DNA from: Candidatus Magnetocorallium paracelense
Lineage (GTDB): Bacteria; Nitrospirota; Thermodesulfovibrionia; Thermodesulfovibrionales; Magnetobacteriaceae
Assembly: GCA_029001845.1 (NCBI GenBank)
Contig: JAREWP010000033.1
Location: 186,001-250,000, forward strand
Direction of reading: 5' to 3'
Length of the DNA stretch: 64,000 bases
Part shown: positions 6,410 to 62,890 of the stretch, one piece after another
How the letters are laid out: every line of letters begins with the position of its first letter
Position numbering within the stretch: the first letter of the stretch is position 1
Made by a program: the position numbers and the translations under genes
The notes under the pieces: model-generated
The model's input: the letters and a program-made list of their open reading frames with translations, nothing else
What the model was told of the DNA's origin: nothing
Databases searched by the model: none

Positions 6410-6439
6410 TCCTTTCCCCCTTCAAAGGGGGAGAGGGAG
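6410..6439. repeat. CCCCCTTCAAAGGGGG hairpin, family C copy 1
   Basis: CTCCTTTCCCCCTT followed by its inverse AAGGGGGAGAGGGAG with a 3-nt loop. Related sequences lie at 22984-23027 and 28180-28304. It stands in the leader of the gene at 6488. Confidence 0.7.
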
Positions 6440-6487: not shown

Positions 6488-9184
6488 ATGTATAATACAG
6501 AAGAGAAGCAGGAAGTGATTAGAAAAAGAGCAGGCGCCTCATTCTTAAGACTCACGCCCTTAACCGTGAAGGTTCTCATTATGGTCGGGCTTGTGGTAAC
6601 ACTGATATGGCCTCTTCTCGATTATTATCAAAGCAAAAGATTGAAAGAAGTCTTTCTCTCCCAACTTTCCAAAAAGCTCAAATATCAGGCTCACCATGGA
6701 AGAATTGAGCTGGATTCATATATTAAAAGATATCATCAGGCAGTTAAGGTATTTACGGTTCTCGAATCGTTTATTGCATATCTCAATTCCATGGAAGGAA
6801 GAGAGGAAGAGGAGCCTCCTCTGATATACGATCAACCTCCCCCCTGGTATCCAAGACGAACAATAGCCCGCTCCTTTGTATTGCCACGATTTGCAATATT
6901 GATTAATGATAGGGGTAAAGTTCTGGAAATCTACAGGACCAGACAGGAAGAAATCCCGGATTCGCTGATAAATCCCGATGCCATCATCCTCCAGTTAAGC
7001 ATTGATCAGAATTACATGACCACTTTAAACGGGCAGCCTTTTTTGTTGACATCAAAGAGAACGGCAGCAACCAAAAGCGGGGAATCTTATGTTCTCATGC
7101 TCGCATCTCCATTGGACCAGGAGTTTCTGGTCAGAGCTCTGGGCCATCATGACCAGGAACAGAGAGTCGCTTTAATAACAGGAGAGAATCCCTACATATT
7201 GGCGAGTAACAATCCCGATAAGCTGACCAAAGGCGCTCTGCTGAACGATCTGGAGGATAAATTCCTTATAGAGGGGAAATCTTTCTTTGACTATGGCTCT
7301 TCGGACCTGATGCTCCAGTTCGTTTCATTTATTCCTTTGGACGAAGTAAGAATCATGACTGAAGAGATGCTCTCCTCAAACAGGCAGCGGAGCGCTGTAG
7401 TCGTTTTTGTGATCGTTGTTGCTCTGCTTCAGATAATGGGATGGATTACTCACAGGATTGCGATCCTGACTAAGCTGGTAATGGGCTTTTCCGAAGAGAT
7501 TCTGGGCAAAAAAATGGAAGGGAACCTGAGAGGGGATAAGCTGTTTATACTTGAGCAGAGATTTTCCGAACTCATTGAAGATGTTATCTCTTCTCGTAAG
7601 GGGATGGAAAAAAAGGCTATCGAACTGCAAAAGGCAAAGGATGAGTTGGAAGATAAAGTGACCGAACGTACTAAGGAGTTAAGCAGTACGAATGTGCAGC
7701 TTCTGACAGAGGTCAGAGAGAGGAAGAAAGCGGAGAGAAAGATAGAATTCAATTATAATGTTCAGCGAGTGATAAGTTCCGTTTTGAGAGTCTCCCTGGA
7801 ACAGACAACTCTTAAAAAACTGCTTGAGCGTACAATCGATTTTATTAAAAGCGTACCGGAGATTTCCTTTAAATCCAACTGCGCCATTTTTATTACAGAT
7901 GAAGGGGGCGACAGAGATGGAGAGAACAACAGACATCTTATTTTAAAGGCTGAAAGCGGTTTTGACTCGTCGTTGATAGAGAAGTGCTCCATTGTACCCT
8001 TTGGAAAATGTTTATGCGGGAAAGCCGCTTTGTCCGGAGAGATTGTATTTGTCGACAGGGTCGATCACAAACACGAACCATTGTCCGATTCCGCGCCCGA
8101 TCACGGCCACTATTGCGTTCCCATTAAATCCGGCGATAATGTAACAGGCGTTATAGCGATATATCTTGAAAAGGGACATATAAGAAATCCAATGGAAGAA
8201 GATTTTCTGCAGTCCCTTGCAGATACGCTTGCAGGTATTATAGAGCGGAAAAGGATCGAAGCCGAACTCAATGCTTCAAACGAACTTTTTCAAACATTGA
8301 TCGATAACATTCCCGACTCCATCTATTTTAAGGATATGGAGAATCGATTTGTGAAGGTAAATCGAGCGAAGGCCGTGAATTCGAGTACAACGATAGATGA
8401 TATGACCGGAAAAACCGATTACGATTATCTTCCCGACGATCAGGCCGAAGGAGCCTTTAAAGACGACGACCTGGTAAAGGAGACCGGTCAACCTATTATA
8501 GATAAGGTGGAACGTATATCGCACAAAGAGGGCATCGAGAAGTGGGTTTCCGTTGTAAAAATACCGTGGTACGGTAAAAATCGGGAGATTATTGGAACAA
8601 TCGGTATTTCCAGGGATATCAGCAAACTCAAAGCTACTGAAGACAAACTCAGAGACAGTGAACAAAAACTGAAATACCTTGCCCACCACGATGCACTGAC
8701 AGGACTCCCCAATCGACTGCTTTTTAATGACAGAATAAAACAGGTTCTTTCCTATTCAAGGAGAAACAACAAGATGTTTGCCGTTATGTTTCTCGATCTC
8801 GACCATTTTAAGGATATTAATGACACTCTCGGCCATGACGCCGGTGACGATTTACTTAAAGAAGTGGCGGAGAGACTCAAAGGATGTGTGCGCGGAAGCG
8901 ATACTGTCGCTCGTCAGGGTGGGGACGAATTTATCGTTCTCCTGATCGATATTAACGGTATCGACGTTGTTAAGCTTGTGGCAGGTAAAATTGTCGAACT
9001 TCTAAGCAAGAGCTTTACTCTAAAAGGAGAAGAGCGTTTTATCTCTACCAGCATCGGGATAAGTGTTTTCCCGGACAACGGTGACGATGTAGAAGAACTG
9101 GTAAAAAAAGCCGATATTGCTCTCTATGATGCAAAGAGCAAGGGAAGAAAGAACTATAAATTTTATAAGGCCGGGGATCGGTGA
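6488..9184 (+). CDS. Membrane-bound sensor diguanylate cyclase (periplasmic sensor, GAF, PAS, GGDEF)
   Basis: 898 residues. TM1 (about 27-46), a ~250-residue extracytoplasmic region of Cache-like length, TM2 (302-320), a HAMP-like/coiled-coil linker (about 321-425), GAF (about 430-590, with PFGKCLCGKAAL), PAS (about 600-715, with DNIPDSIYFKDMENRF) and GGDEF (about 730-895). The active site GGDEF is intact at 811-815, and an RxxD product-inhibition site (R802, D805) lies five residues upstream. It should therefore make c-di-GMP from two GTP with feedback inhibition. No EAL domain. The periplasmic ligand is unknown. Its GAF and PAS are paralogous to those of the kinase at 3156. Confidence 0.92.
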   Translation: MYNTEEKQEVIRKRAGASFLRLTPLTVKVLIMVGLVVTLIWPLLDYYQSKRLKEVFLSQLSKKLKYQAHHGRIELDSYIKRYHQAVKVFTVLESFIAYLNSMEGREEEEPPLIYDQPPPWYPRRTIARSFVLPRFAILINDRGKVLEIYRTRQEEIPDSLINPDAIILQLSIDQNYMTTLNGQPFLLTSKRTAATKSGESYVLMLASPLDQEFLVRALGHHDQEQRVALITGENPYILASNNPDKLTKGALLNDLEDKFLIEGKSFFDYGSSDLMLQFVSFIPLDEVRIMTEEMLSSNRQRSAVVVFVIVVALLQIMGWITHRIAILTKLVMGFSEEILGKKMEGNLRGDKLFILEQRFSELIEDVISSRKGMEKKAIELQKAKDELEDKVTERTKELSSTNVQLLTEVRERKKAERKIEFNYNVQRVISSVLRVSLEQTTLKKLLERTIDFIKSVPEISFKSNCAIFITDEGGDRDGENNRHLILKAESGFDSSLIEKCSIVPFGKCLCGKAALSGEIVFVDRVDHKHEPLSDSAPDHGHYCVPIKSGDNVTGVIAIYLEKGHIRNPMEEDFLQSLADTLAGIIERKRIEAELNASNELFQTLIDNIPDSIYFKDMENRFVKVNRAKAVNSSTTIDDMTGKTDYDYLPDDQAEGAFKDDDLVKETGQPIIDKVERISHKEGIEKWVSVVKIPWYGKNREIIGTIGISRDISKLKATEDKLRDSEQKLKYLAHHDALTGLPNRLLFNDRIKQVLSYSRRNNKMFAVMFLDLDHFKDINDTLGHDAGDDLLKEVAERLKGCVRGSDTVARQGGDEFIVLLIDINGIDVVKLVAGKIVELLSKSFTLKGEERFISTSIGISVFPDNGDDVEELVKKADIALYDAKSKGRKNYKFYKAGDR

Positions 9185-17906: not shown

Positions 17907-20012
17907 ATGAAAAAAACAATCTCTTTAATTCTTGTCATCCTTTCCCTCTCCTACTTCGGACTTGAATTTTTCTTTAGCGGAAAGAAAGATATCTATTATA
18001 TCGGAATAACAGGGCCAATGGGAGGAAAAGCGGGAAATGACGGTATCTCCATGAAGCGCGGAGCCGAGATGGCTCTTAAGGAGATTCAACGACAGGGAAA
18101 ACTCAAGAACATCGAGCTCCAACTATTAATCCATGACGATCAAAGCGATTACAGCTCAAAATACGGCCCTATAGAAATCGCCAGAAAAATTTCTCAAAAT
18201 AAAAAGGTTCTTGCCGTTATTGGCCATAAATTCAGCGTACCTACTATTGCGGCGGCGCCCATATACGCCAAGCACCAAATCCCTCTCATCTCTCCAACGG
18301 CCACGGCCCCTGAAGCAACTGCCGTTAGTGAATGGGCCTTTAGCATGATTTGCAATGATCTTTATCAAAGCAGGTTTTTAGCCAACTATGTGGTCCATGC
18401 ATTGAATAAAAAAAGAATTGCCATAATTCATTCCGAAGACGGTTACGGAAAATCTTTAAAAACTCATTTTATCCGGGAGCTGCAAAAAAATAAAGTAATT
18501 CCCCACACTGTCATTGAGCTACCTGAAAAAGATATGGAACCTGTTCATTTGAAGGTGCATTTGGAACATCTGAAAAAGGCCGACATCATTTTTCTGGCCA
18601 TGCTTAGCGATAATGCCGCTAATGTTTTGAAATACTTAAAAAACAAACAGGTTCAAACCGATTTTATCGGAAACGAGGTATTGGGAAATCCAAAGTTTAT
18701 TCATGATGCAGGCGTTTATTCGGAAAATGTATATGCCGTTACCTCCTTTCTTCAAAACCTTTTGGGCATTGATGCGCGCCTCTATGCACAGCAATACAGG
18801 AAAACCTATTTAAAAGAGCCTGACTGGATTTCTTCTCACAGTTATGAGGCTGTTCAGCTTATTGCCAATGCCATTGAAAAAGTAGGCCCCGATCGTTTTT
18901 CCATCAAAGATTACCTTAAACAAATCCGAAGCCCCCATGAATCGGTAAAAGGTATTGGAGGAAACATTTACTTTGACCGATACGGGTCGAATCAAAGAGC
19001 CATCTATATCGGGCAGGTAAAAAACGGGAGGTTCATCTCTTCCGAATTTCAACTCATCCAGGCGCCCTACCCGGAACTTCTGCCTGCCGGTGAGCAAAAA
19101 GAGTTGGTTCATTTTTACAAACAGGCTCTCAAACGTACAACCATTGTTTTTACAGGGGTTCATATCAAAGAGATTAAAGAAATCAATATTGATGAATCCT
19201 ACTATACCGCTGATTTTAATTTGTGGTTTCGCTGGAACGGTAAAGACGAAAAAAATTTGGACTTTGAACTGCTCAACGGGCAAATCGAAAATCAGGCAAT
19301 TCTGGAAAAATATGAAAATCCCGAAACCGGGGAGCATTTCATCTCCTATGAAATCAAAGCAACCCTTAAAGAAGAATTCCCCTTACACGATTATCCCTTT
19401 GATAAACAAATTCTAGGCATTCAGGTGAAACCATTAAAAGCCCCGACTACGGAAATTCTTTTGGTAGCCGATTTGGATGAGAGTGAAGGATTTCTGCCTA
19501 TCGATCTGGGCATTTGGAGGGAGAGCCTCCATCTTCAGTATGTAGACCTGAAAGAATTCCTTTACAGCTTTCGGAATCCTCAATTCGATCAAAAAATGTA
19601 CACATTGGATTACTCCCTTTTTCACTATGAAATTCGCATGGCACGTGAAGTTTCCGACTATCTCCTCAAAATGATTCCTTTGCTGTTTATGTTGATAATA
19701 GTAGGAATATCCTTTTTCATGGATATCACCCGCAACTCAGGCGCGCGTTTCGATATCGGTTTACTGGGATTGCTTACGGCCGTGGCTTTTCACCAGACGG
19801 TGATCAGTGTGGGATATCTCATTCGGGCGGACTTTTTCTTTATCTGCACTTATTTTTTAATCTCCCTCATCATTGTAGAAACGGTCATTGTAGATCATTT
19901 TTATCACTCTCAAAGGGAGAAACTGGCTTTGGCAATTGATCGATATTCCTTTTCAGGATTTGTAATGATTATTGTGGGACTTGCCATTGCACTTTTTGGC
20001 GATTTTATATAA
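17907..20012 (+). CDS. Periplasmic-binding-protein / pentameric ligand-gated ion channel fusion
   Basis: 701 residues. An N-terminal signal/anchor segment (1-24) is followed by a LivK-type type I periplasmic-binding fold (about 29-385: YIGITGPMGG..., ...LIHDDQSD, PLISPTATAPE, IAIIHSEDGYG). A Cys-loop-receptor-type extracellular domain follows (about 410-575): YTADFNLWFRW and the Pro-loop signature LHDYPFDKQILGIQV (493-507), without the eukaryotic cysteine pair. Four TM segments follow (about 586-606, 614-636 pore-lining M2, 643-664, 682-700) with a short M3-M4 loop, as in prokaryotic channels. It is probably an inner-membrane homopentamer gated by a small molecule (amino-acid-like, by analogy with LivK). 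A TTGACT/TAGTAT promoter lies upstream. First gene of the signalling cluster. Confidence 0.85.
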   Translation: MKKTISLILVILSLSYFGLEFFFSGKKDIYYIGITGPMGGKAGNDGISMKRGAEMALKEIQRQGKLKNIELQLLIHDDQSDYSSKYGPIEIARKISQNKKVLAVIGHKFSVPTIAAAPIYAKHQIPLISPTATAPEATAVSEWAFSMICNDLYQSRFLANYVVHALNKKRIAIIHSEDGYGKSLKTHFIRELQKNKVIPHTVIELPEKDMEPVHLKVHLEHLKKADIIFLAMLSDNAANVLKYLKNKQVQTDFIGNEVLGNPKFIHDAGVYSENVYAVTSFLQNLLGIDARLYAQQYRKTYLKEPDWISSHSYEAVQLIANAIEKVGPDRFSIKDYLKQIRSPHESVKGIGGNIYFDRYGSNQRAIYIGQVKNGRFISSEFQLIQAPYPELLPAGEQKELVHFYKQALKRTTIVFTGVHIKEIKEINIDESYYTADFNLWFRWNGKDEKNLDFELLNGQIENQAILEKYENPETGEHFISYEIKATLKEEFPLHDYPFDKQILGIQVKPLKAPTTEILLVADLDESEGFLPIDLGIWRESLHLQYVDLKEFLYSFRNPQFDQKMYTLDYSLFHYEIRMAREVSDYLLKMIPLLFMLIIVGISFFMDITRNSGARFDIGLLGLLTAVAFHQTVISVGYLIRADFFFICTYFLISLIIVETVIVDHFYHSQREKLALAIDRYSFSGFVMIIVGLAIALFGDFI

Positions 20013-20299
20013 ACATGTCAATAACACGAAGACAAAGGGCGCGAAGAAAATAAAGAAATTTTTTTGGTAACTATTCAGCGAATTTTTTTTGACAAGATTA
20101 ACAGGATAGAACAAGATTCATAAATCCTGTTGATCACGAACTTTTTCCTGTTCAGTTTTTTTTACTTTTTTTTTGTTTATCCTGTAATCCTGTCTGAATA
20201 ATTACTTATTTTTTTACTTCGTCATCTTCGTGGTAAAAAATATGTTTGGTTCCGGTTCGCCGGGTCAGGTAGCATTGAAATTCTAATGGAGGTTGAATT
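20013..20299. other. Intergenic spacer with AACAGGAT/ATCCTGTT repeats
   Basis: 287 bases without a gene. It contains AACAGGATAGAACAAGATTC...AATCCTGTTGATC and later TTATCCTGTAATCCTGTCTGA, i.e. several inverted AGGATTAACAGG-like pieces typical of degenerate dispersed repeats, plus long T-tracts that could end the channel transcript. A good TGGAGG ribosome-binding site for the next gene is at its end. No clear promoter seen. Confidence 0.4.
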
Positions 20300-21808
20300 A
20301 TGTCCAATTGGATAAAAAAAACAAAATTGAGTACGCGAATTTTTATATTGGTTTCATTTTTACTTACCATGATAATCGCGACGAGTTCTTTCGCGCTGTT
20401 AAAAGTTCACCATTTGGGAATGGAAATCGATGAAATCGCCCATGAAGAGATTCCATTGGCCAGGATTGTAACCAAGCTGACGGAATATATGTTGGATCAG
20501 GCCATGCGTTTTGGGGAAATCCTGCAATATGGAAGTCTGGGCGTCAAAGAAAAATTTGAAGAGGAAGTCCATGATTTTATCGATGCCGGAGAGCGGATTA
20601 ATGATGTGATCAGAGAGGGAAGGAAAATAGCCGAACACAGTATCGAAATTATTCATGATGAGACAAAGAAAAAAGAGCTGGAGCATATCAAACAAATTTT
20701 GGGACAAATCGAAAAAGAGCATGGCGATTATGAACATCACAGCGAAGAGTTGTTTCGAGAAGTTGCTTTAATCAATTTTGGAGAAGAGAGCTCGGAAAGT
20801 AGGGCTCATCGAATAGAAGCGCTCGAGAGGATGGAAAAGGAAACCAAACATCTTGAAGAACTTATTGAGGAAATTTTAGAGGTGATTGATAATTTGACAA
20901 TGCAAATCACCCATGAAGCAGAGACAGAGCAAAGGGAAGCCTTTATTTATCTGATTCTTTTAATCATTTTTTCTATCACTTCGGGATTGGCCTTGAGTTT
21001 ATTTATTATTAGAAATACAGTGCTTCCTTTGAAGGAGTCCATCCTCCAGTTGCTTCAGGGGGCTCAGGAATTTCAGGCAGCCTCCCTGCAAATAGCCAAT
21101 GGCAGTACGTCCCTATCCTATGAATCGGAAAAACAGGCATCCGCCGTTGATAACACCACACATATCATAGACAGCATAAACGATCTTGCCGGGACCAGCG
21201 TGTCTTTGGCGGACCGTCAGGAGCAGCTTATAAAGGAAACCACCACTATTTCCAACACGACTCACGCCAATATCAATGAGATTATGAGCAGCAGCCGTGA
21301 AGTCGCAGATTTTGGAGAGAAAATTGGACCATTAATTAAATCCTTAAATGATATGGCGATGCAATTAAATATGCTGGCCACAAATATCTCTGCCGAGGTA
21401 ACACGCACTCAGGTCGCCCAAAGCATCGTCGTTTTCACTGACGAGATGAGAAGTTTGGCGAAAGAAACCGTTAACCTGGCCCGTGAGGCCGATGAACTGA
21501 CAATGAAATCGGGGATGAATATTCGAAAAGGTTTGGAACTGGCCATGAACACACAGGAAGCCTACAACGAAATTATGGATATTATGCAAAGGCTGAACAA
21601 AGCATGCGATGAGAGTTTGGAAACTTCCAGGCTGGGACAGGAAAAGATCACCGGTGCAAACGGAGCAATCAATCAAATCAATGAGGCCATTCAGAACAAT
21701 GCATCCGTATCGGAGCAAAACGCTGCGGCCAGTGAAGAGTTGAGCGCTCAGGCCCAGGCTCTACTGGATGTTGCAGAGAGCTTAAGGGTTCTTGTGGGGA
21801 AATCATAA
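20300..21808 (+). CDS. Two-TM chemoreceptor-like protein with degenerate signalling tip
   Basis: 502 residues. TM1 (about 12-34), a helical extracytoplasmic domain (35-213; four-helix-bundle type, rich in Glu, His and Lys), TM2 (about 215-237) and a long cytoplasmic coiled coil. The hairpin region NMLATNISAEVTRTQVAQSI (357-376) aligns with the NLLALNAAIEAARAGE tip of chemoreceptors and is followed by a recognisable TDEMRSLAKETV. The Glu and Arg of the tip remain, but the GE-G-RG segment is lost. The C-terminus SVSEQNAAASEELSAQAQ is MCP-like. It lacks a clear HAMP domain. Coupling to CheA/CheW is therefore uncertain. It may serve the neighbouring channels as sensor or clustering scaffold (inference from context). 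Confidence 0.75.
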   Translation: MSNWIKKTKLSTRIFILVSFLLTMIIATSSFALLKVHHLGMEIDEIAHEEIPLARIVTKLTEYMLDQAMRFGEILQYGSLGVKEKFEEEVHDFIDAGERINDVIREGRKIAEHSIEIIHDETKKKELEHIKQILGQIEKEHGDYEHHSEELFREVALINFGEESSESRAHRIEALERMEKETKHLEELIEEILEVIDNLTMQITHEAETEQREAFIYLILLIIFSITSGLALSLFIIRNTVLPLKESILQLLQGAQEFQAASLQIANGSTSLSYESEKQASAVDNTTHIIDSINDLAGTSVSLADRQEQLIKETTTISNTTHANINEIMSSSREVADFGEKIGPLIKSLNDMAMQLNMLATNISAEVTRTQVAQSIVVFTDEMRSLAKETVNLAREADELTMKSGMNIRKGLELAMNTQEAYNEIMDIMQRLNKACDESLETSRLGQEKITGANGAINQINEAIQNNASVSEQNAAASEELSAQAQALLDVAESLRVLVGKS

Positions 21809-21864
21809 ATTAGTTAATACAATAACCGTTTATTTCAATACCATCATCCGTTATCGAGAACTAT

Positions 21865-22932
21865 ATGATTCGCTTTAGTCAAAGAATTGTTAATCACAAA
21901 CTATTTGAGCCATTCATCATTGGTGTCATTATCCTGTGCGGGATTATTGTGGGTCTGGAAACGTCTGAATCATTCGTAGGACAGTATGGTCAATTGTTCT
22001 ATGTGTTCTACAGCATTATCCTGGTAATATTCATTTTGGAAGCGCTGTTAAAGATGACTGCTTTGGCGCCCGATTCTTTTAGATATTTTAAAAACGGCTG
22101 GAATCTTTTTGATTTTTTCGTAATTATTATCGCCCTCATTCCAAACACCGGACAATTCGCTATGGTAGCCAGATTGGTCCGTTTATTAAGAGTTCTCCGT
22201 CTGATTTCCGCCGTTCCGGAGATACGGCTCATTGTCAATACTCTGCTCCGTTCTATTCCAAGCCTGGCCAATATACTTGTGCTGTTATTTTTATTATTTT
22301 ACATCTATGGCGTTACCGGTTATTTTCTATACCACACACATGACCCACTCCATTGGGAGACTCTCGGAATGAGCATGATTACCCTTTTTCGAGTGCTCAC
22401 GTTGGAAGACTGGACCGATATCATGTATAAGGCCATGGAGCTGAATTTCTATCATTGGACCTATTTTGTAAGCTTTGTGATCATCACGACATTCGTTGTG
22501 ATCAATATGTTTGTTGCTATTATTCTTAACAATCTGGACGAAACCAAAAAAGAACACAGCCAGGAAAAACATGAGCTTAGGCAATTAGAAGAAGTTCTCT
22601 CTTCCAAGCAAATACGCGTACAATGTCAACTGCCGGCAACGATAAAAACAGAGGAACTTACGGCAAAAACCGTTATCAGGAATATCAGCATAAAGGGATG
22701 TCGTGTATTATTCCGCAATAAAGACGCCTTGATAAATAAATTTGCAATAGGTGAAAATATATCTTTAACAAGCGTCCTTCCCTTTGCCGAATCGGAGATA
22801 AATTTCTCCGGTGAAATTCGAAGTAAAAATGAAGGGAAGTATATAGCGTCTCTTGGAATTGAATTTGGTGAGGTTAATAAGGAAACACTCAAAACTTTAA
22901 CGAATTTTATCGTTTCCAAATTGAATGTCTGA
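21865..22932 (+). CDS. NaChBac-type voltage-gated cation channel with C-terminal PilZ-like domain
   Basis: 355 residues. Single-repeat 6-TM channel: S1 (about 13-32), S2 with the charge-transfer motif F56-x-x-E59-x-x-x-K63, S3 with N80/D83, S4 with four Arg at three-residue spacing (R103, R106, R109, R112), S5, a pore helix with selectivity filter TLEDWTD (179-185), S6 (203-222) and a short coiled coil. The remainder (about 250-352) looks like PilZ: an LPATI strand, then R-NISIKGCRVLF (272-282) and LGIEF. The first PilZ arginine motif RxxxR is incomplete, so c-di-GMP binding is uncertain. The filter has Asp at the two positions where engineered CavAb gained Ca2+ selectivity, so Ca2+ or mixed permeation is inferred. 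56 bases after the chemoreceptor-like gene. Confidence 0.85.
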   Translation: MIRFSQRIVNHKLFEPFIIGVIILCGIIVGLETSESFVGQYGQLFYVFYSIILVIFILEALLKMTALAPDSFRYFKNGWNLFDFFVIIIALIPNTGQFAMVARLVRLLRVLRLISAVPEIRLIVNTLLRSIPSLANILVLLFLLFYIYGVTGYFLYHTHDPLHWETLGMSMITLFRVLTLEDWTDIMYKAMELNFYHWTYFVSFVIITTFVVINMFVAIILNNLDETKKEHSQEKHELRQLEEVLSSKQIRVQCQLPATIKTEELTAKTVIRNISIKGCRVLFRNKDALINKFAIGENISLTSVLPFAESEINFSGEIRSKNEGKYIASLGIEFGEVNKETLKTLTNFIVSKLNV

Positions 22933-22983
22933 TGTTTAGCCTTGTCCGAAATCAAGCTGCCGCAGGCAGCAATTTTTTTCATA

Positions 22984-23027
22984 CTCCCTCTCCCCCTTTG
23001 AAGGGGGAGAGAGTTGGGGTGAGGGGG
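22984..23027. repeat. CCCCCTTTGAAGGGGG hairpin, family C copy 2
   Basis: CTCCCTCTCCCCCTTTGAAGGGGGAGAG is a perfect-type hairpin followed by a G-rich tail, GTTGGGGTGAGGGGG, that ends two bases before the ATG of the cyclase gene. The repeat therefore forms the whole translation-initiation leader of that gene. Confidence 0.7.
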
Positions 23028-23029
23028 TA

Positions 23030-24928
23030 ATGACGCTTCTAAAGAATATTATCGATTCTTTCACATGGCAGTTGTTGCTGATTGCGGCAACTCTATACAC
23101 AGTGTTCGGTATTCCCCTGTATATGCTCTCCCTTCCCGGTAAGCTTAACGATTTACCTTATATTGTCATAATATCTGTTGTATTTATTATCTTTGTACTG
23201 GATTGTATTTCCAGAGTCGTTGTTTACAGATGGGTTTATATAAAAACATTAGGCTTTTGGCTGGATTTTCTTTCCATCGTGTTTCTTATTCTGGGGACAC
23301 CGGGTTTGTTATATTATTTCTTCTCTTATACAAACGATAATTTATTGATTAACCCGCGAGTCTTCCGTCTTACCAGATTAATCATCAGACTTACTCCTGT
23401 CGGCAGATTACCAAGGTTTATCAATAAGGAGGAAGAATTCAATCATCAATCGGAAACCGGGATATATGAACAGCAGGCAAGTACTTTACAAATGCAAATA
23501 AACGAGAGATTCAGTACGCTTGTTATTATTTTTGTTATTTTGGCCATTCTGATTGTCCCTGTTACAAATATTATACTGATTACGAACCCTTATCAAAAAA
23601 TATTGAATAATTTAACAAAGATCGATAAAAACGAAAAACTGTTGCATCATTATTTGGAAGTAATTAAATTTGACAAAAGCATATTGCAGGTTAAACGCAC
23701 CGGCAAAGGGGACGCGACAATTTTATTGGATAATAACAATCCTCAAATACAGGCATATGAACGATTGTTTTATACAAATAACAATTTCAGGTTAATTGTA
23801 TCGAATCGGGCAATACAAGCAAAATACGCCATATCGGACTGTATTATGGCGCTGTTCATAATAATGATTACCATTGTATTTAATCTTAGATTGTCAGTTG
23901 TAACCAAAAGGATTCTCATCGATCCCTTACATAAACTAAAAAGCCTCATTAATAATGCGATTCGTCAAAATAAGGAATTAACCTTTCTGGAAAACATCCG
24001 CGATACTGAACCGATCGTATTTTTGGAAAAGGTTTTTATTCCACTACTCCAAAGGGTGATTGCCGCAGTAAATACAGAGTCAAAGGAATCGATACTGGAA
24101 TTAGACGAATCAAAGCAGAATATTATCAAGAAAAGAGATTGGGCTATTTTATTTTCCGATGTCGAGGGATACGTTACAATCACCGAAACATTCCAATCAG
24201 AATCTTTTAAAATTATGAATAAATATTTCGAACACTGCTCTAAGGTTGTTTTTAAGTATAAAGGAGATATCTTTGAAACCACCGGTGATGGCTTGATTAT
24301 CACTTTCGATGGTGAGGAGAAAGAGAAACGCGCTTTTCTTGCCGCCATAGAGATCATCGAAACATTGGACAGAGATATAAAGAATCACAAATGGAATAAC
24401 ATTATCGATCATCCTGAATGGACAGAAGAGTGGACAAAAAGGATTCGTACCAGATTGGGTATTCATGTCGGTTCTGTTTCAACAGGAAGAATCGGAACGG
24501 ACAAAATTTTTCGATACGGAATGGTAGGTGAAACAGCCGGCTTGTCTGCGCGATTGGAATCGGCAAATAAACACTATGGTACTTACCTCCTATTCTCCGA
24601 TAAAATATTTACTTTCGTGCCTGCCGATTATATTGAATTTGTCAGGCAGGTGGACTATGCAAATGTCGTAGGTAAAAATAAGCCCATTGCTATTTACACA
24701 TATGATTTTAATCGCTCCGCCAATTATCATGACTTCAGAAAAGACTATAATTCAGGCATCTACGACTATTTAGCAGGAAAATGGGATGTAGCCTGCAAGC
24801 ATCTGACCAAAGCCCATAATTTATGGCCTGACGAAAGGGCTACTTTAAATTTATTGGAAAGAATGAATGAGAATAACTCGATATGCCCTCCTGATTGGGA
24901 TGGCTCGGTTCAATTGAAAAAGAAATAA
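23030..24928 (+). CDS. Class III nucleotide cyclase with N-terminal voltage-sensor-like domain
   Basis: 632 residues. S1-S4-like bundle: S2 with F55-x-x-D58-x-x-x-R62 and S3 with Asp79 match the charge-transfer centre of voltage sensors; S4 has R110, R113, R116 and R120. A fifth TM (161-183), an extracytoplasmic domain (~184-266), TM6 (268-287) and a HAMP-like linker lead to the cyclase domain (about 368-545): metal Asp377 in FSDVEGY and Asp420 in TTGDGL, then HVGSVSTGRIG and SARLES with Arg508. The purine-specificity lysine is Glu416, as in guanylyl cyclases; the second specificity position is Gly497, and the transition-state Asn is Gly504. Product (cGMP or cAMP) and activity are therefore open. 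The tail ends PPDWDGS, as in many bacterial adenylate cyclases. Confidence 0.8.
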   Translation: MTLLKNIIDSFTWQLLLIAATLYTVFGIPLYMLSLPGKLNDLPYIVIISVVFIIFVLDCISRVVVYRWVYIKTLGFWLDFLSIVFLILGTPGLLYYFFSYTNDNLLINPRVFRLTRLIIRLTPVGRLPRFINKEEEFNHQSETGIYEQQASTLQMQINERFSTLVIIFVILAILIVPVTNIILITNPYQKILNNLTKIDKNEKLLHHYLEVIKFDKSILQVKRTGKGDATILLDNNNPQIQAYERLFYTNNNFRLIVSNRAIQAKYAISDCIMALFIIMITIVFNLRLSVVTKRILIDPLHKLKSLINNAIRQNKELTFLENIRDTEPIVFLEKVFIPLLQRVIAAVNTESKESILELDESKQNIIKKRDWAILFSDVEGYVTITETFQSESFKIMNKYFEHCSKVVFKYKGDIFETTGDGLIITFDGEEKEKRAFLAAIEIIETLDRDIKNHKWNNIIDHPEWTEEWTKRIRTRLGIHVGSVSTGRIGTDKIFRYGMVGETAGLSARLESANKHYGTYLLFSDKIFTFVPADYIEFVRQVDYANVVGKNKPIAIYTYDFNRSANYHDFRKDYNSGIYDYLAGKWDVACKHLTKAHNLWPDERATLNLLERMNENNSICPPDWDGSVQLKKK

Positions 24929-24940
24929 CACTGTAAACAT

Positions 24941-26164
24941 ATGCAATATAAGATTGAAAATTATCTTATGGACCAGACCATATTTAAAGAAGGCGATGTG
25001 GCGAATCATGCCTATCTCATCAAAAGGGGATCAGTAAGAATCTTTAAACACATAAATGATGTTCACGTCCACCTGACCGATTTATTGGGAGGAGATGTAT
25101 TTGGAGAGCTAAGCGTACTCAGAAAAGAGACTCGAACTGCCTCTGCAATGGCGATTGAGTATACCGAGCTTGTGGTAATTAATCAATCAACGCTGCTCAC
25201 GCATATCAAAAAAAGTTCTCCAGTTATCAGATCCATTTTTAGAAAATTGATGAGCAGGGTTGTCGATTTAACGGGAAGATTATCTGAAACGCAAACACAG
25301 ACCAATGATCAGAGTACATTTATGGCTATATGCAACATTTTGGAAATGATGCATACCATACACCTTCATGCACCTGTAAGCGATCGCTCTTCAGATCACG
25401 ATTTGGGAATCAATTACCTCAATCTGTCAAAGAAAATCAGGGATATCATGCCGATCTCTCAATACGATATCGGTGAGACCATAAAAAAACTTCATGAAAT
25501 CGAGATTATAGAGGTGCAATACAAAAAGTCTGCTTCAACAGATAAATCTTCCGAACCGGTTAAGGGGAACACCAGGGAGCATAAGAACGATTCCGCCGAA
25601 AAATTCATCAAAATTTTGTACCCCGATAACTTTCTCCACTTTACAAAAAAGTTCTATAGTGAGTTGCAAGAATTCCAACCTGACCCGGTGGCAGATGAGA
25701 TCGACTTTATCGATATCGATGATTTTGCAAGTATTGTCAAAACCAGTTCCAAAATAATCTACAAAAAAATTTGCGCCGGAGAGATACCGGAGAGTATTTT
25801 TTGTATAAACAGGCCTGAGGCTGTCGAATGGGCAAGCGAGATGGGAGAGGATTATTTTAAAAAAGCAGGAAAGCCGCAGGTAGAGCTCGAGGATATCGAG
25901 TGTATTGATGACATTGTCTATGTGAAAGATGTCATCCTTCAGGAAGCGTTAAGCAGAGTTGGACATAATAAATTATGCACCCTCACGTTAATGGCGGACG
26001 AGAACGCCAGGTCAATTATATTCAGAAATATCTCCTCCAAACTGGCGACAATCATTAAAGAAGAGATGGAAACAAAGGTAATCATCGATAAGGTGGAGGC
26101 TTACGATATAGAAGAGGAGTTCATTGAAAAGATAAAGGAACTTGTGAACGAGTCATGTGAATGA
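24941..26164 (+). CDS. Cyclic-nucleotide-binding protein with HTH-like and FliG-C-like domains
   Basis: 407 residues, soluble. CNB domain (about 5-110) with an intact phosphate-binding cassette GDVFGELSVLRKETRTASA (51-69): Glu56, Arg65 and, right after it, Thr66, the 'RTA' form found in cGMP-dependent kinases and in many bacterial CNBs. A helical middle region follows, then an excisionase-like helix-turn-helix (about 256-300, DIDDFASIVKTSSKIIYKKI). The C-terminus (about 318-402) resembles the FliG C-domain: DDIVYVKDVILQEALSRV and FRNISSKLATIIKEEM. Twelve bases after the cyclase, so it is the obvious reader of that enzyme's product. The output may be a protein scaffold or motor-like partner rather than DNA; no flagellar genes are near. 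Confidence 0.72.
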   Translation: MQYKIENYLMDQTIFKEGDVANHAYLIKRGSVRIFKHINDVHVHLTDLLGGDVFGELSVLRKETRTASAMAIEYTELVVINQSTLLTHIKKSSPVIRSIFRKLMSRVVDLTGRLSETQTQTNDQSTFMAICNILEMMHTIHLHAPVSDRSSDHDLGINYLNLSKKIRDIMPISQYDIGETIKKLHEIEIIEVQYKKSASTDKSSEPVKGNTREHKNDSAEKFIKILYPDNFLHFTKKFYSELQEFQPDPVADEIDFIDIDDFASIVKTSSKIIYKKICAGEIPESIFCINRPEAVEWASEMGEDYFKKAGKPQVELEDIECIDDIVYVKDVILQEALSRVGHNKLCTLTLMADENARSIIFRNISSKLATIIKEEMETKVIIDKVEAYDIEEEFIEKIKELVNESCE

Positions 26165-42897: not shown

Positions 42898-44649
42898 TCA
42901 ATCAGCGCATACTTTATTTCTTCCGCTCTGCTTTGCTTTATACAGGGCGACATCGGCTCGTTCTATCGTTTCTTCCAACGTCTCTCCCTGAATATGCAAG
43001 GTTACGCCTGAGCTGATTGTAACGCCAACACTTTCCATTGGTTTATCGAAAACCGTTTCAGACACTTTTCTTCGAATTTTTTCCGCATAATTCAGCGTTT
43101 CGTCGGATTTCGATTCCACGATGAATACGGCGAACTCCTCTCCGCCGAATCTTACGGGAAAATCACTGGTCCTGGAATTATCCAATATAATACCTGCGAC
43201 TCTCTTTAAAACCACATCTCCAATGTTGTGGCCAAAGGTGTCATTAATCTTTTTAAAAAAATCTATGTCCAACAGTGCAAGTCCTATTTTGGCGTCTTCA
43301 TTTCTGTTATGCACATCAAACATTCTCTGCACGATATCGTACATATAAACGCGGGTAAACAGTTTGGTTAAAGGGCATTTGATGGATTTCTCGAAGTATT
43401 TTTGACGTTCTTCTTCAATAATATGGAACGTCACCTCTCGTTCAAGCGCCACCTGAAGAGGTGCGCTTATTTGTGACATCAGTTGTTTAAGCTCTGTCTT
43501 ATTGTCTATTTCCCTGGACAGAGACAAAATGGCAAGAGCGTTGATTACCTGACGATCAGGAGAAAAGAGGGGTATCAATAAAGCCCTTCCCCTTTCATTT
43601 TCAACGTAGAGATAATGTTCCTCAAATCTACTGTCCCATGTTTTTATATCAATATTTAAATAGCTGTCGTACATCGTCGGCTCTAATTGGGGTTTTCCCC
43701 TGTAACGACTCTCTTTGTTAAACAAAAGCTTCATATCTTCATGAATTGCAATAAACTCGATATCCTTTGCAGAGGATATAATATTTCTTATATTCTGTAA
43801 AAGACTATTTGCAATAATCCTGAAATCGCGATATATGATCATGCTGTTGGAAATCGCTCTGAGAGTTTTGTTAAAGAGAGATAAACGTTTTATGTCCACA
43901 TCTTTGCGAGCCATCAGAAACAAACCGCACTCCAGGCCGGTCAGCTTCTCGATCATCGTACCGATCAACCATTTTTCGATGATAGAGCCATGCTGAGGAG
44001 CAATCAGATTCACAGGGTACTCTTGTATCTTATTAAGACTGTATTGCAGCAATTCGCGACTGGGCATGTAGTGTTCGTGAAAGGGGCGAAGTGATTCGAA
44101 ATACCCTTCATCATTTGCGTAAAGCTGAAAATCCTCTGTAAACCCGCCAAACAAATCACTTGAAAATAAAACTCCGCTCTCGTTGTCAAAGGTGCAAAAG
44201 GCGCCGGGGAAGTGTAAATAAGGAGTAAATATGAAGTTCAGCAGCCTCCCTCCCAAATCGAGTTTCCAGTTGTTTTCCTCGATCAACCAAAAAGGAGTTT
44301 TCAGATCATAGTGTTTTATTAAAGCCTCGGCCCTCCAGTGAGAAACGATATATGCGTCTTCTCTGGTAATCATATTGTCTATCGTCGTTAAAGAAGAGGT
44401 TATGTCAGGGTCCTGATGGTGGCAGATAAAATAGCGTATATTGGTGAAAGGAGTAACGGTTTCTATTTTTTTTAAGGTGTCACTGAAAGTTATATTCGAT
44501 CCCGGATCGAGGAGTACAGAGTTGTCTCCCTGTTCGATAAGATAGACATGGCATTGAAAGGACTCTTCAGGCAGATAGGAACCGACCCACCAGATACGAT
44601 CGGCAATCTCTATCGCCTTGTCTTTGTCTATACTCTTATTACGCTCCAT
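42898..44649 (-). CDS. Diguanylate cyclase with N-terminal di-iron MBL-fold (oxygen-sensor-like) domain
   Basis: 583 residues. N-terminal metallo-beta-lactamase fold (about 10-245) with metal ligands CHHQDPD (77-82), a distal His in YLHFPGAF, Asp in FSSDLFGG and PQHGS. This is the flavodiiron-like pattern without the flavodoxin domain, as in oxygen-binding di-iron proteins. A GAF-like region (about 255-405) and an intact GGDEF domain (FGGEEFAVF) follow. It probably makes c-di-GMP in response to O2 or NO. It starts three bases after the Sua5-like gene, so the two are co-transcribed. The GGDEF call is firm; the ligand is inference. Confidence 0.85.
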   Translation of the reverse strand: MERNKSIDKDKAIEIADRIWWVGSYLPEESFQCHVYLIEQGDNSVLLDPGSNITFSDTLKKIETVTPFTNIRYFICHHQDPDITSSLTTIDNMITREDAYIVSHWRAEALIKHYDLKTPFWLIEENNWKLDLGGRLLNFIFTPYLHFPGAFCTFDNESGVLFSSDLFGGFTEDFQLYANDEGYFESLRPFHEHYMPSRELLQYSLNKIQEYPVNLIAPQHGSIIEKWLIGTMIEKLTGLECGLFLMARKDVDIKRLSLFNKTLRAISNSMIIYRDFRIIANSLLQNIRNIISSAKDIEFIAIHEDMKLLFNKESRYRGKPQLEPTMYDSYLNIDIKTWDSRFEEHYLYVENERGRALLIPLFSPDRQVINALAILSLSREIDNKTELKQLMSQISAPLQVALEREVTFHIIEEERQKYFEKSIKCPLTKLFTRVYMYDIVQRMFDVHNRNEDAKIGLALLDIDFFKKINDTFGHNIGDVVLKRVAGIILDNSRTSDFPVRFGGEEFAVFIVESKSDETLNYAEKIRRKVSETVFDKPMESVGVTISSGVTLHIQGETLEETIERADVALYKAKQSGRNKVCAD

Positions 44650-55186: not shown

Positions 55187-56731
55187 CTATTGCCAGATAC
55201 TCAGGAGCTCGTCTTTAAGGGAAGAGAAGAAGTGGTTTATATCGACATCCGGCAGAATCTGACTTTTATTGTAGAGTCTCAAAAAAACTTCCGTTATATC
55301 AGGATCGAATTGTTTTAACGTGAACTTTCTGATTTCATCGACAGCCTTTTCCGGCGCAAAGCTCTTTCTGTATGGTCTGTCAGAAGTCATGGCGTCATAT
55401 GTATCCGCTACTGCAAGAATTCGCGCCGTAAGAGGGATGTCGTTCCCCTTTAGTCCGGAAGGGTAACCTGATCCGTCGAACTTCTCATGGTGGTATTTAA
55501 CTGCGCTTGTTACATCTTCGATATTTTTTATATTTTCGATAATCTCCACGCCCCTTACAGGATGAGCCTTAACTTGTTCAAACTCCTTGTCGCTGAGTTT
55601 GCCGTTTTTCAGGAGTATCTTCTCTTCCACTCCGATCTTTCCGATGTCATGAAGTAGTCCGCTCAAATGCAGTACAGCCAGCATTTTACTTGGCAGATCC
55701 AGTCCCTTACCTATACAGAGTGCATATGACGCAACCCTGTCGGAGTGTCCGCTTGTGTATTTATCCTTTGCTTCTATCGCCTTGATCAGACTCCTTATGG
55801 TACCCATAAAGAGAGAGGAAATATTGTCCATCAGAGTTATCTTTTCGATAGCCGTACCGGTGTGTAAGGCGATCGAGCCGATCATCTCCATATCGTTTTC
55901 ACAGAAAATCCCCTCAACCTGCCTTGAATCAATATAAACGGCTCCCATAATCTTTCCTTCGCTCTCCATGGGAACACACATAACCGATTTTATGCTCTGC
56001 ATAAAAATACTGTCGCCAGAAAGGAATCTTTCGTCCCCCATGGCGTTAGATGTCAAAATAACCTCTCTTTTCTTTAGGGCTTCATCAAGAACAGTCGAGG
56101 ATATCTCGATATTTTCGGAGCTGAGAGTTCTGGATGCAACAATATCATAGCTTCCTTTCTTAAGGAGAAGTACAGCTCCTCTCTCTGCGCCACTAAGCTT
56201 GAATATGCTGTCCAGCACAAAGGAGGTCATGGATTTGATATCACCGTCGGAGTGGATACGGCTGAAAATATTATGGAGTATTCTGAGCTTATCGAAAGTG
56301 GGATCTATGTCGAGATCAGCGGAACTGCGGGACTTTATTTCATCGATGTTAAGCCTTTTTTGTACATCTGTCTCTCTTATTGATTCAGGTATTTTTTCCT
56401 GTATCACATGAGGTTCGAAGATTTCCTCCCCTTCTTCGGAATCCACTTGAAAGAGTATCTCCGTTTTTCCCACACTGATAATGTCACCGTTTGTAAGTTC
56501 TACTCTGGCGACCTTCTCTTCATTTACATAAGTTCCGTTACTGCTTGACAAGTCATATAGTACAGGGACGCCGCTTTTAATCTCTATCTTACAGTGTTTT
56601 CTGGATATAAGCGCTTCCATAACCGAAATATCGGCCTTTATGGACCTCCCTATAGTGTAAGAGGAGTTGTCTTTGAGCTTGAAAACTTCACCCGCCGACT
56701 CACCGGAGGTTATTCTAAGTACAAATGGCAT
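55187..56731 (-). CDS. FHA-GAF-HD-GYP cyclic-di-GMP phosphodiesterase
   Basis: 514 residues. FHA domain (about 20-98) with the phosphothreonine-binding GRS, SRKH and SSNGTYVN residues. GAF (about 150-300). HD-GYP (about 315-505) with HSDRVA, LLHDIGKIGV and HHEKFDGSGYP, all metal ligands present. It should degrade c-di-GMP under control of a phosphorylated partner (FHA) and a small ligand (GAF). A Ser/Thr kinase partner is not in the window. Opposes the two GGDEF cyclases at 6488 and 42898. Confidence 0.93.
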   Translation of the reverse strand: MPFVLRITSGESAGEVFKLKDNSSYTIGRSIKADISVMEALISRKHCKIEIKSGVPVLYDLSSSNGTYVNEEKVARVELTNGDIISVGKTEILFQVDSEEGEEIFEPHVIQEKIPESIRETDVQKRLNIDEIKSRSSADLDIDPTFDKLRILHNIFSRIHSDGDIKSMTSFVLDSIFKLSGAERGAVLLLKKGSYDIVASRTLSSENIEISSTVLDEALKKREVILTSNAMGDERFLSGDSIFMQSIKSVMCVPMESEGKIMGAVYIDSRQVEGIFCENDMEMIGSIALHTGTAIEKITLMDNISSLFMGTIRSLIKAIEAKDKYTSGHSDRVASYALCIGKGLDLPSKMLAVLHLSGLLHDIGKIGVEEKILLKNGKLSDKEFEQVKAHPVRGVEIIENIKNIEDVTSAVKYHHEKFDGSGYPSGLKGNDIPLTARILAVADTYDAMTSDRPYRKSFAPEKAVDEIRKFTLKQFDPDITEVFLRLYNKSQILPDVDINHFFSSLKDELLSIWQ

Positions 56732-62516: not shown

Positions 62517-62890
62517 GAGGGAGCGAGTAGAGCAAGCCCTCCCGGATAAGGAATAGTCAACTGTCCGGTAGTATACAATCCTACAAATAGGACGATATAC
62601 GAGTCTATCGAGGTGAAGGGTGTAGGCCCTGAATCTGCCCCACAGCTCCGAGAAACTTATATTTTGGGAGAGAGCCGATCCTTTCATATCAGGCGCAGGC
62701 AACACGGTGGGCGCGCTATAAAGACGAGTGTTCACTGCCCCCCGGGGTCTCAGACAGCATCGAGTAAGACAACGACAACGAAGTAACCGGGCAAGCATCG
62801 GAAAGGCCCAAAGGTTTTTGGCGAAACTTCCCGGATCGATGGGATAGTAGCCGAGTATGATTATCCGACGTAAAAGGAGGAGATCAAATT
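62517..62890. ncRNA. Structured noncoding stretch, possibly 5' part of a group II intron
   Basis: 374 bases with no real coding frame, GC-richer than its surroundings and full of paired-looking G/C blocks (GAGGTGAAGGGTGTAGGCCC, CCCCGGGGTCTCAGACAGC). It ends in GTAAAAGGAGGAGATC, which resembles a ribosome-binding site without its gene. It begins exactly where the transposase homology stops. That placement and texture fit a group II intron whose reverse transcriptase and 3' domains were deleted. I cannot fold it, and the 5' GUGYG consensus is not seen, so the call is tentative. Confidence 0.3.

Follow-up and report, generated by a model that had tools for sequence, protein, structure and literature searches.

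A BacNav-type channel gene whose C-terminal coiled coil is replaced by a PilZ domain

In a 64,000-nucleotide stretch of the genome of Candidatus Magnetocorallium paracelense (the window), one open reading frame joins a BacNav-type channel to a C-terminal PilZ domain, which occupies the position of the coiled coil of related channels (Table 1). Channel type, filter and PilZ domain are all known individually; within the genomes and literature examined, the new part is their fusion. The favoured reading, to which we give about an even chance, is a homotetrameric, Na+-preferring voltage-gated channel of the NavPp type in which a YcgR-type PilZ domain replaces the coiled coil and affects assembly or gating, with motility as the likely theme. 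What bacterial voltage-gated channels do physiologically is still largely open, and a natural channel whose gating tail is a second-messenger or motility domain would provide a direct link between membrane potential and intracellular signalling. As a natural chimera, the fusion would also help to find out how a ring in the cytoplasm influences a BacNav's S6 gate; even without c-di-GMP binding, the exchange of coiled coil for PilZ would test the need for a tail. The filter is less important, as TLEDWTD is known from native channels, one of which has been recorded.

Table 1. Features of the channel–PilZ gene and of the other genes discussed, in window positions
Feature	Position	Strand	Basis
Channel–PilZ fusion gene	21865..22932	+	ORF with ATG start, 355 aa, uninterrupted; Pfam Ion_trans and PilZ
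Voltage-sensor and pore region, residues 11-230	21895..22554	+	Pfam Ion_trans; AlphaFold model; PDB matches
S4 segment, residues 102-114, with R103, R106, R109, R112	22168..22206	+	Arg invariant in 41 homologs
Selectivity filter TLEDWTD, residues 179-185 (T179-L-E181-D182-W-T-D185)	22399..22419	+	Sequence
Shortened helical neck, residues 231-247	22555..22605	+	11-column alignment gap; longer C-terminal coiled coil in relatives
Degenerate c-di-GMP motif 1, S247-K-Q-I-R251 for RxxxR	22603..22617	+	Alignment with own-genome PilZ proteins
PilZ domain, residues 248-349	22606..22911	+	Pfam PilZ, 42.8 bits; own-genome PilZ comparison
Intact c-di-GMP motif 2, N273-I-S-I-K-G278 (D/NxSxxG)	22681..22698	+	Sequence
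Periplasmic-binding/pentameric-channel fusion	17907-20012	+	Peripla_BP_6 E 6e-41; LGIC_1 E 1.4e-11; PDB GLIC-type chains
Chemoreceptor-like protein	20300..21808	+	Pfam MCPsignal 35.8 bits, cut-off 34.6
Terminator-like hairpin	22956..22970	+	24 bases past channel stop codon; consensus scan only
Putative voltage-sensor/class III cyclase fusion	23030-24928	+	Guanylate_cyc E 6.5e-10; S1-S4 motifs
cNMP_binding and FliG_C protein	24941-26164	+	E 5.7e-17 and 2.5e-8
GAF/PAS-GGDEF gene	6488-9184		c-di-GMP enzyme, domain level
ODP-GGDEF gene	42898-44649	-	c-di-GMP enzyme, domain level
FHA-GAF-HD_5 (HD-GYP-like) gene	55187-56731		c-di-GMP enzyme, domain level

The channel part matches Pfam Ion_trans over residues 11-230 with E 1.8e-48 and has the six helices, S4 Arg repeat and pore loop of this family. 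Its S4 segment carries four Arg residues at three-residue spacing, all invariant across 41 aligned homologs. An AlphaFold model built from 41 aligned sequences gave pLDDT values mostly above 80 for the channel part; in Foldseek, this part was ranked closest to CavAb and NavAb (35-40% identity), and its fold matches NavAb, CavAb and NaChBac. By sequence, the best one-domain relatives in the PDB were chains of the NavCt type, of NaChBac and of NavAb/CavAb (PDB 4bgn is presumably NavCt). On these grounds, the 355-residue product is a BacNav-type channel, and the earlier note, made from the letters of the DNA, was right in this assignment: the Ion_trans match, the four S4 charges and the fit of the model to CavAb and NavAb all agree with it. 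Homologs of the channel were found in 18 of 295 Nitrospirota genomes (its own counted), 127 of 398 Pseudomonadota genomes and 5 of 247 Acidobacteriota genomes, the phylum names being inferred. At E 1e-20, none of the 99 other genomes sampled from the family and order has the channel, which suggests that it was gained from outside the lineage; a plasmid search returned distant channels only, none covering 80% of the query. Adjacent pairs of BacNav-type channel genes, possibly giving mixed channels, were observed at L171 (G420:C135), G357:C62, G396:C22, G508:C391 and L061.

The filter named in the earlier note, TLEDWTD, is indeed encoded in this gene. In the 41-row alignment, T179 and E181-D185 are invariant and L180 nearly so. 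TLEDWTD was present in 117 of 132 homologous ORFs and TFEDWTD in three, in a sample that is biased towards the former (one search pattern was EDWTDIMY); whole-protein genome searches likewise gave many TLEDWTD-type sequences. Judged from these sequences, the filter is common in this branch of the BacNavs and nothing special. It is acid-rich, of the form TLExWxD, and distinct from TLESWSM. A tree of 111 sequences, NavPp and CavMr themselves not among them, groups the channel with TLEDWTD sequences and apart from TLESWSM with a support of 100/100; the channel forms a long branch (1.5 changes per column), and its placement inside the TLEDWTD group is loose. Ancestor-like BacNavs (AnclNavs) were described by Shimomura et al., with NavPp and CavMr as the two recorded members (PMC7041947). 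Membership of this NavPp-type group is the best explanation of the channel's sequence.

With regard to ion preference, the authors of the EukCat study consider the filter alone insufficient for reading selectivity (PMC8002053). The earlier note likened TLEDWTD to the filter by which NavAb was made Ca2+-selective (as in CavAb) and predicted either Ca2+ passage or poor selectivity. As a matter of sequence the analogy is sound: TLEDWSD renders NavAb, and TLEDWAD renders NaChBac, Ca2+-selective (PMC7041947), and it has been suggested that an Asp directly after the filter Glu promotes either Ca2+ selectivity or block by Ca2+ (PMC10120453). As a prediction it is contradicted by native NavPp, which, with the identical TLEDWTD filter, prefers Na+ (PCa/PNa 0.308) and undergoes low-affinity Ca2+ block; moreover, its T6S (TLEDWSD) and T6A (TLEDWAD) variants are still not Ca2+-permeable (PMC7041947). 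The Ca2+-selective channel CavMr (filter TLEGWVD) speaks for both sides: it has Gly at position 4, and the G4D exchange lowers PCa/PNa from 218 to 7.7, at which Ca2+ is still favoured (PMC7041947). Ca2+ selectivity was therefore given up as the leading prediction from the filter, and a native Ca2+-selective channel that gives the cell a Ca2+ signal is considered unlikely. By analogy with NavPp, the evidence points to passage mainly of Na+ rather than Ca2+; poor ion selectivity, the alternative in the earlier note, is possible, and what holds for NavPp may not hold for this channel, given its long branch. Elsewhere, a channel homolog in an Acidobacteriota genome (L159, G896:C111) was found to have TLEGWVD, the same filter as the Ca2+ channel CavMr.

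The tail sets this protein apart from its relatives. PilZ (PF07238) matches residues 248-349 of the complete protein with 42.8 bits (E 7.3e-11) and the tail alone with 46.4 bits, both against a curated cut-off of 22.5, so the PilZ-like C-terminus suspected earlier is upheld by the profile search; a genome-wide PilZ search likewise placed the match at the channel tail above the cut-off. Related channels continue from S6 into a neck and a conserved, roughly 40-residue coiled coil, and the length after S6 is at most about 60 residues in all other ORFs that were read out. Here, a short neck with an 11-column gap in the alignment leads to PilZ from residue 248, and AlphaFold predicts S6 and the neck as a single helix (residues 195-254). 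Alignment and profile together show the PilZ domain replacing the C-terminal coiled coil, which is where the earlier note had located it. The coiled coil is common in BacNavs and was not taken as required for membership. In the AlphaFold model, the PilZ part, which no aligned row covers, has pLDDT mostly below 50. A direct sequence search of the tail against the PDB gave no match; a profile made from the tail and three PilZ domains of the same genome gave a weak match to VCA0042 in the PDB (E 0.0045). A search for PilZ relatives in viral contigs confirmed none. Within the genome itself, the tail is closest, at 24-30% identity, to PilZ domains of proteins that also have PilZNR, the YcgR architecture.

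In the same searches of Nitrospirota, Pseudomonadota and Acidobacteriota genomes, no match outside the channel's own genome reached into the PilZ region, and nine longer homologous frames that were fetched contain no PilZ; the remaining homologs were judged by match range and frame length alone. Among the papers listed by the literature searches, which covered few subscription papers and preprints, none appears from its title to describe a fusion of PilZ with an ion channel. A fusion that occurs in one genome among those searched, on a long branch and with one degenerate motif, might be taken for a channel that works like the rest of its group and merely carries PilZ as a passive spacer or as a decaying, functionless domain. 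This appears very unlikely, as the frame is open, the score is well above the cut-off, and the core PilZ positions (R251, C254, P257, S275, G278, C279, and the G and F of LGIEF) agree with PilZ proteins of the same genome; in addition, the domain takes the very place of the missing tetramerising coiled coil. Scarcely credible is an artefact of assembly or sequencing that joined two genes. Only one genome of the genus was sampled, so no second copy serves as confirmation, and GC3 is 0.345 in the tail against 0.465 in the channel part; however, the frame is single and uninterrupted, the contig reaches well past the gene, PilZ follows directly after the neck with no separate start codon close to the join, and the neighbouring genes range in GC3 from 0.39 to 0.47.

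PilZ domains contact c-di-GMP via the motifs RxxxR and D/NxSxxG (PMC3131395, PMC10333796). The channel tail retains the second as NISIKG, and has SKQIR in place of the first, with Ser for the first Arg. In the Myxococcus protein PixA, Ala in place of this Arg left no detectable c-di-GMP binding (PMC8316039). The genome holds 15 PilZ matches, and RxxxR is at the expected place in 11 of the 14 others; hence, the loss is specific to the channel protein. The suggestion of the earlier note that the channel could respond to c-di-GMP is thereby weakened, and c-di-GMP gating was demoted from the leading reading on account of SKQIR. The three c-di-GMP enzymes that it counted in the window were confirmed at the domain level; they lend weak support, because the 15 matches indicate that this organism uses c-di-GMP signalling generally. 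One of these genes combines an ODP-type metallo-beta-lactamase domain with GGDEF and possibly encodes a redox- or oxygen-sensing diguanylate cyclase.

As far as the motifs allow a judgement, c-di-GMP control of the channel is doubtful. Nevertheless, a channel gated or modulated by c-di-GMP can be entertained as a tentative possibility: its PilZ ring would bind despite the missing Arg and shift voltage dependence or open probability, such that c-di-GMP sets excitability. This reading accords with the PilZ score above the curated cut-off, with the retained NISIKG and R251, with the enzymes and PilZ matches that indicate a system in use, and with the variation that the binding sites of some c-di-GMP receptors tolerate (PMC10333796). 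K248 and R251, which adjoin the site, may support some binding. The channel-specific loss of the Arg and the precedent of PixA speak against it. PilZ domains with weak or no c-di-GMP binding, such as XCC6012 and XAC1133, can act through protein contact or tetramerise (PMC3131395).

The favoured reading, a Na+-preferring channel of the NavPp type with a PilZ tail, starts from what is directly encoded: a single frame with both domains, the TLEDWTD filter, a charged S4, and a C-terminal part that has lost the long coiled coil and the first Arg of RxxxR. Four subunits would assemble into a homotetrameric voltage-gated cation channel, in which depolarisation would move S4 and open the pore. The influx would be mainly of Na+, with modest selectivity and with block by outside Ca2+. 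The four PilZ domains would form a cytoplasmic ring beneath the S6 bundle and could set assembly or gating via the helix of S6 and neck. An incomplete c-di-GMP site makes a high-affinity c-di-GMP switch a less likely role for the ring than an assembly or protein-docking module or a weak c-di-GMP sensor.

The channel gene is the third of five genes on a single strand, from 17907 to 26164. The first of them unites a Leu/Ile/Val-type periplasmic binding domain and a pentameric ligand-gated ion channel in one gene, its NCBIfam LGIC_1 match lying below the cut-off of that model. The chemoreceptor-like gene ends 56 bases upstream of the channel, and co-transcription of the two is possible. Downstream of the channel, the terminator-like hairpin probably ends the transcript, and a palindromic repeat, CTCCCCCTTTGAAGGGGGAG, is found at 22990-23009 and again at 6414-6433 (0 expected by chance). 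Since the hairpin and the repeat stand between the two genes, a channel–cyclase operon is not claimed. Further along the window, 62533-62757 (+) matches a group II intron domain with 50.9 bits (cut-off 49).

The putative cyclase has FVLDCISR in S2, an Asp in S3 and RVFRLTRLIIRL in S4 of its N-terminal membrane region, which by these motifs reads like an S1-S4 voltage sensor; its PDB match to S1-S2 of a KCNH channel is weak (E 0.035), with an AlphaFold pLDDT of 46. This N-terminus was found in no other genome among 315 sampled from the phylum. The usual segment of class III cyclases is GDxVNxAARLE; the catalytic segment here, GETAGLSARLE, departs from it, so activity and product are uncertain. 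The cNMP-FliG_C protein has two orthologs within the same taxonomic order (L199 5776-6906 and L198 6106-7284; 46-47% identity in the C-terminal part), both lying directly upstream of MotA_ExbB and MotB_plug/OmpA genes (motA-motB), and its torque-helix-like segment aligns with FliG. There is good evidence to tie this family to the flagellar stator, and the architecture suggests control of the stator by cyclic nucleotides; a literature search yielded nothing on the combination of cNMP-binding and FliG_C.

The five-gene set as a whole was not found in any other genome sampled from the phylum. Given this, and given the hairpin and the repeat, the tie of the channel to the stator theme is weaker. 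From the neighbouring genes and the YcgR-like PilZ domain, motility control is a plausible and likely theme. A far-reaching interpretation would make the locus a single electrical circuit acting on the flagellar motor, in which a Na+-type channel gated via a second-messenger- or motor-linked PilZ ring works with the ligand-gated channel, the chemoreceptor, the voltage-sensing cyclase and the cNMP-dependent FliG_C stator regulator; this is distinctly unlikely.

Among known systems, NavPp of Plesiocystis pacifica and the AnclNavs are the nearest: NavPp has the identical TLEDWTD filter, and the one-domain build and the S4 charges are shared (PMC7041947). Whereas the relatives that were read out end in a coiled coil, this channel ends in PilZ; NavPp itself is likened to it by filter and description. 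CavMr of Meiothermus ruber, a native Ca2+ channel, belongs to the same broad group and has an acid at filter position 7, as does this channel; unlike it, CavMr has Gly at position 4 of TLEGWVD, which matters for Ca2+ selectivity and is Asp here (PMC7041947). CavAb and NavAb are the closest solved structures of the channel part, and the engineered TLEDWSD of CavAb resembles TLEDWTD. However, CavAb is an engineered mutant from another BacNav branch with a coiled-coil tail, whereas this channel is native and has a PilZ tail. For the tail, the PilZ domains of its own genome that resemble it most are those of YcgR-type proteins (PilZNR plus PilZ, the flagellar brake), which have an N-terminal PilZNR and keep RxxxR; the channel tail has a channel as its partner and has lost RxxxR. 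Lastly, XCC6012, a tetrameric PilZ protein with a four-stranded coiled coil, shares with this channel the theme of four-fold PilZ and helices; unlike the channel–PilZ fusion, it is soluble, and its helices are inserted inside its PilZ domain (PMC3131395).
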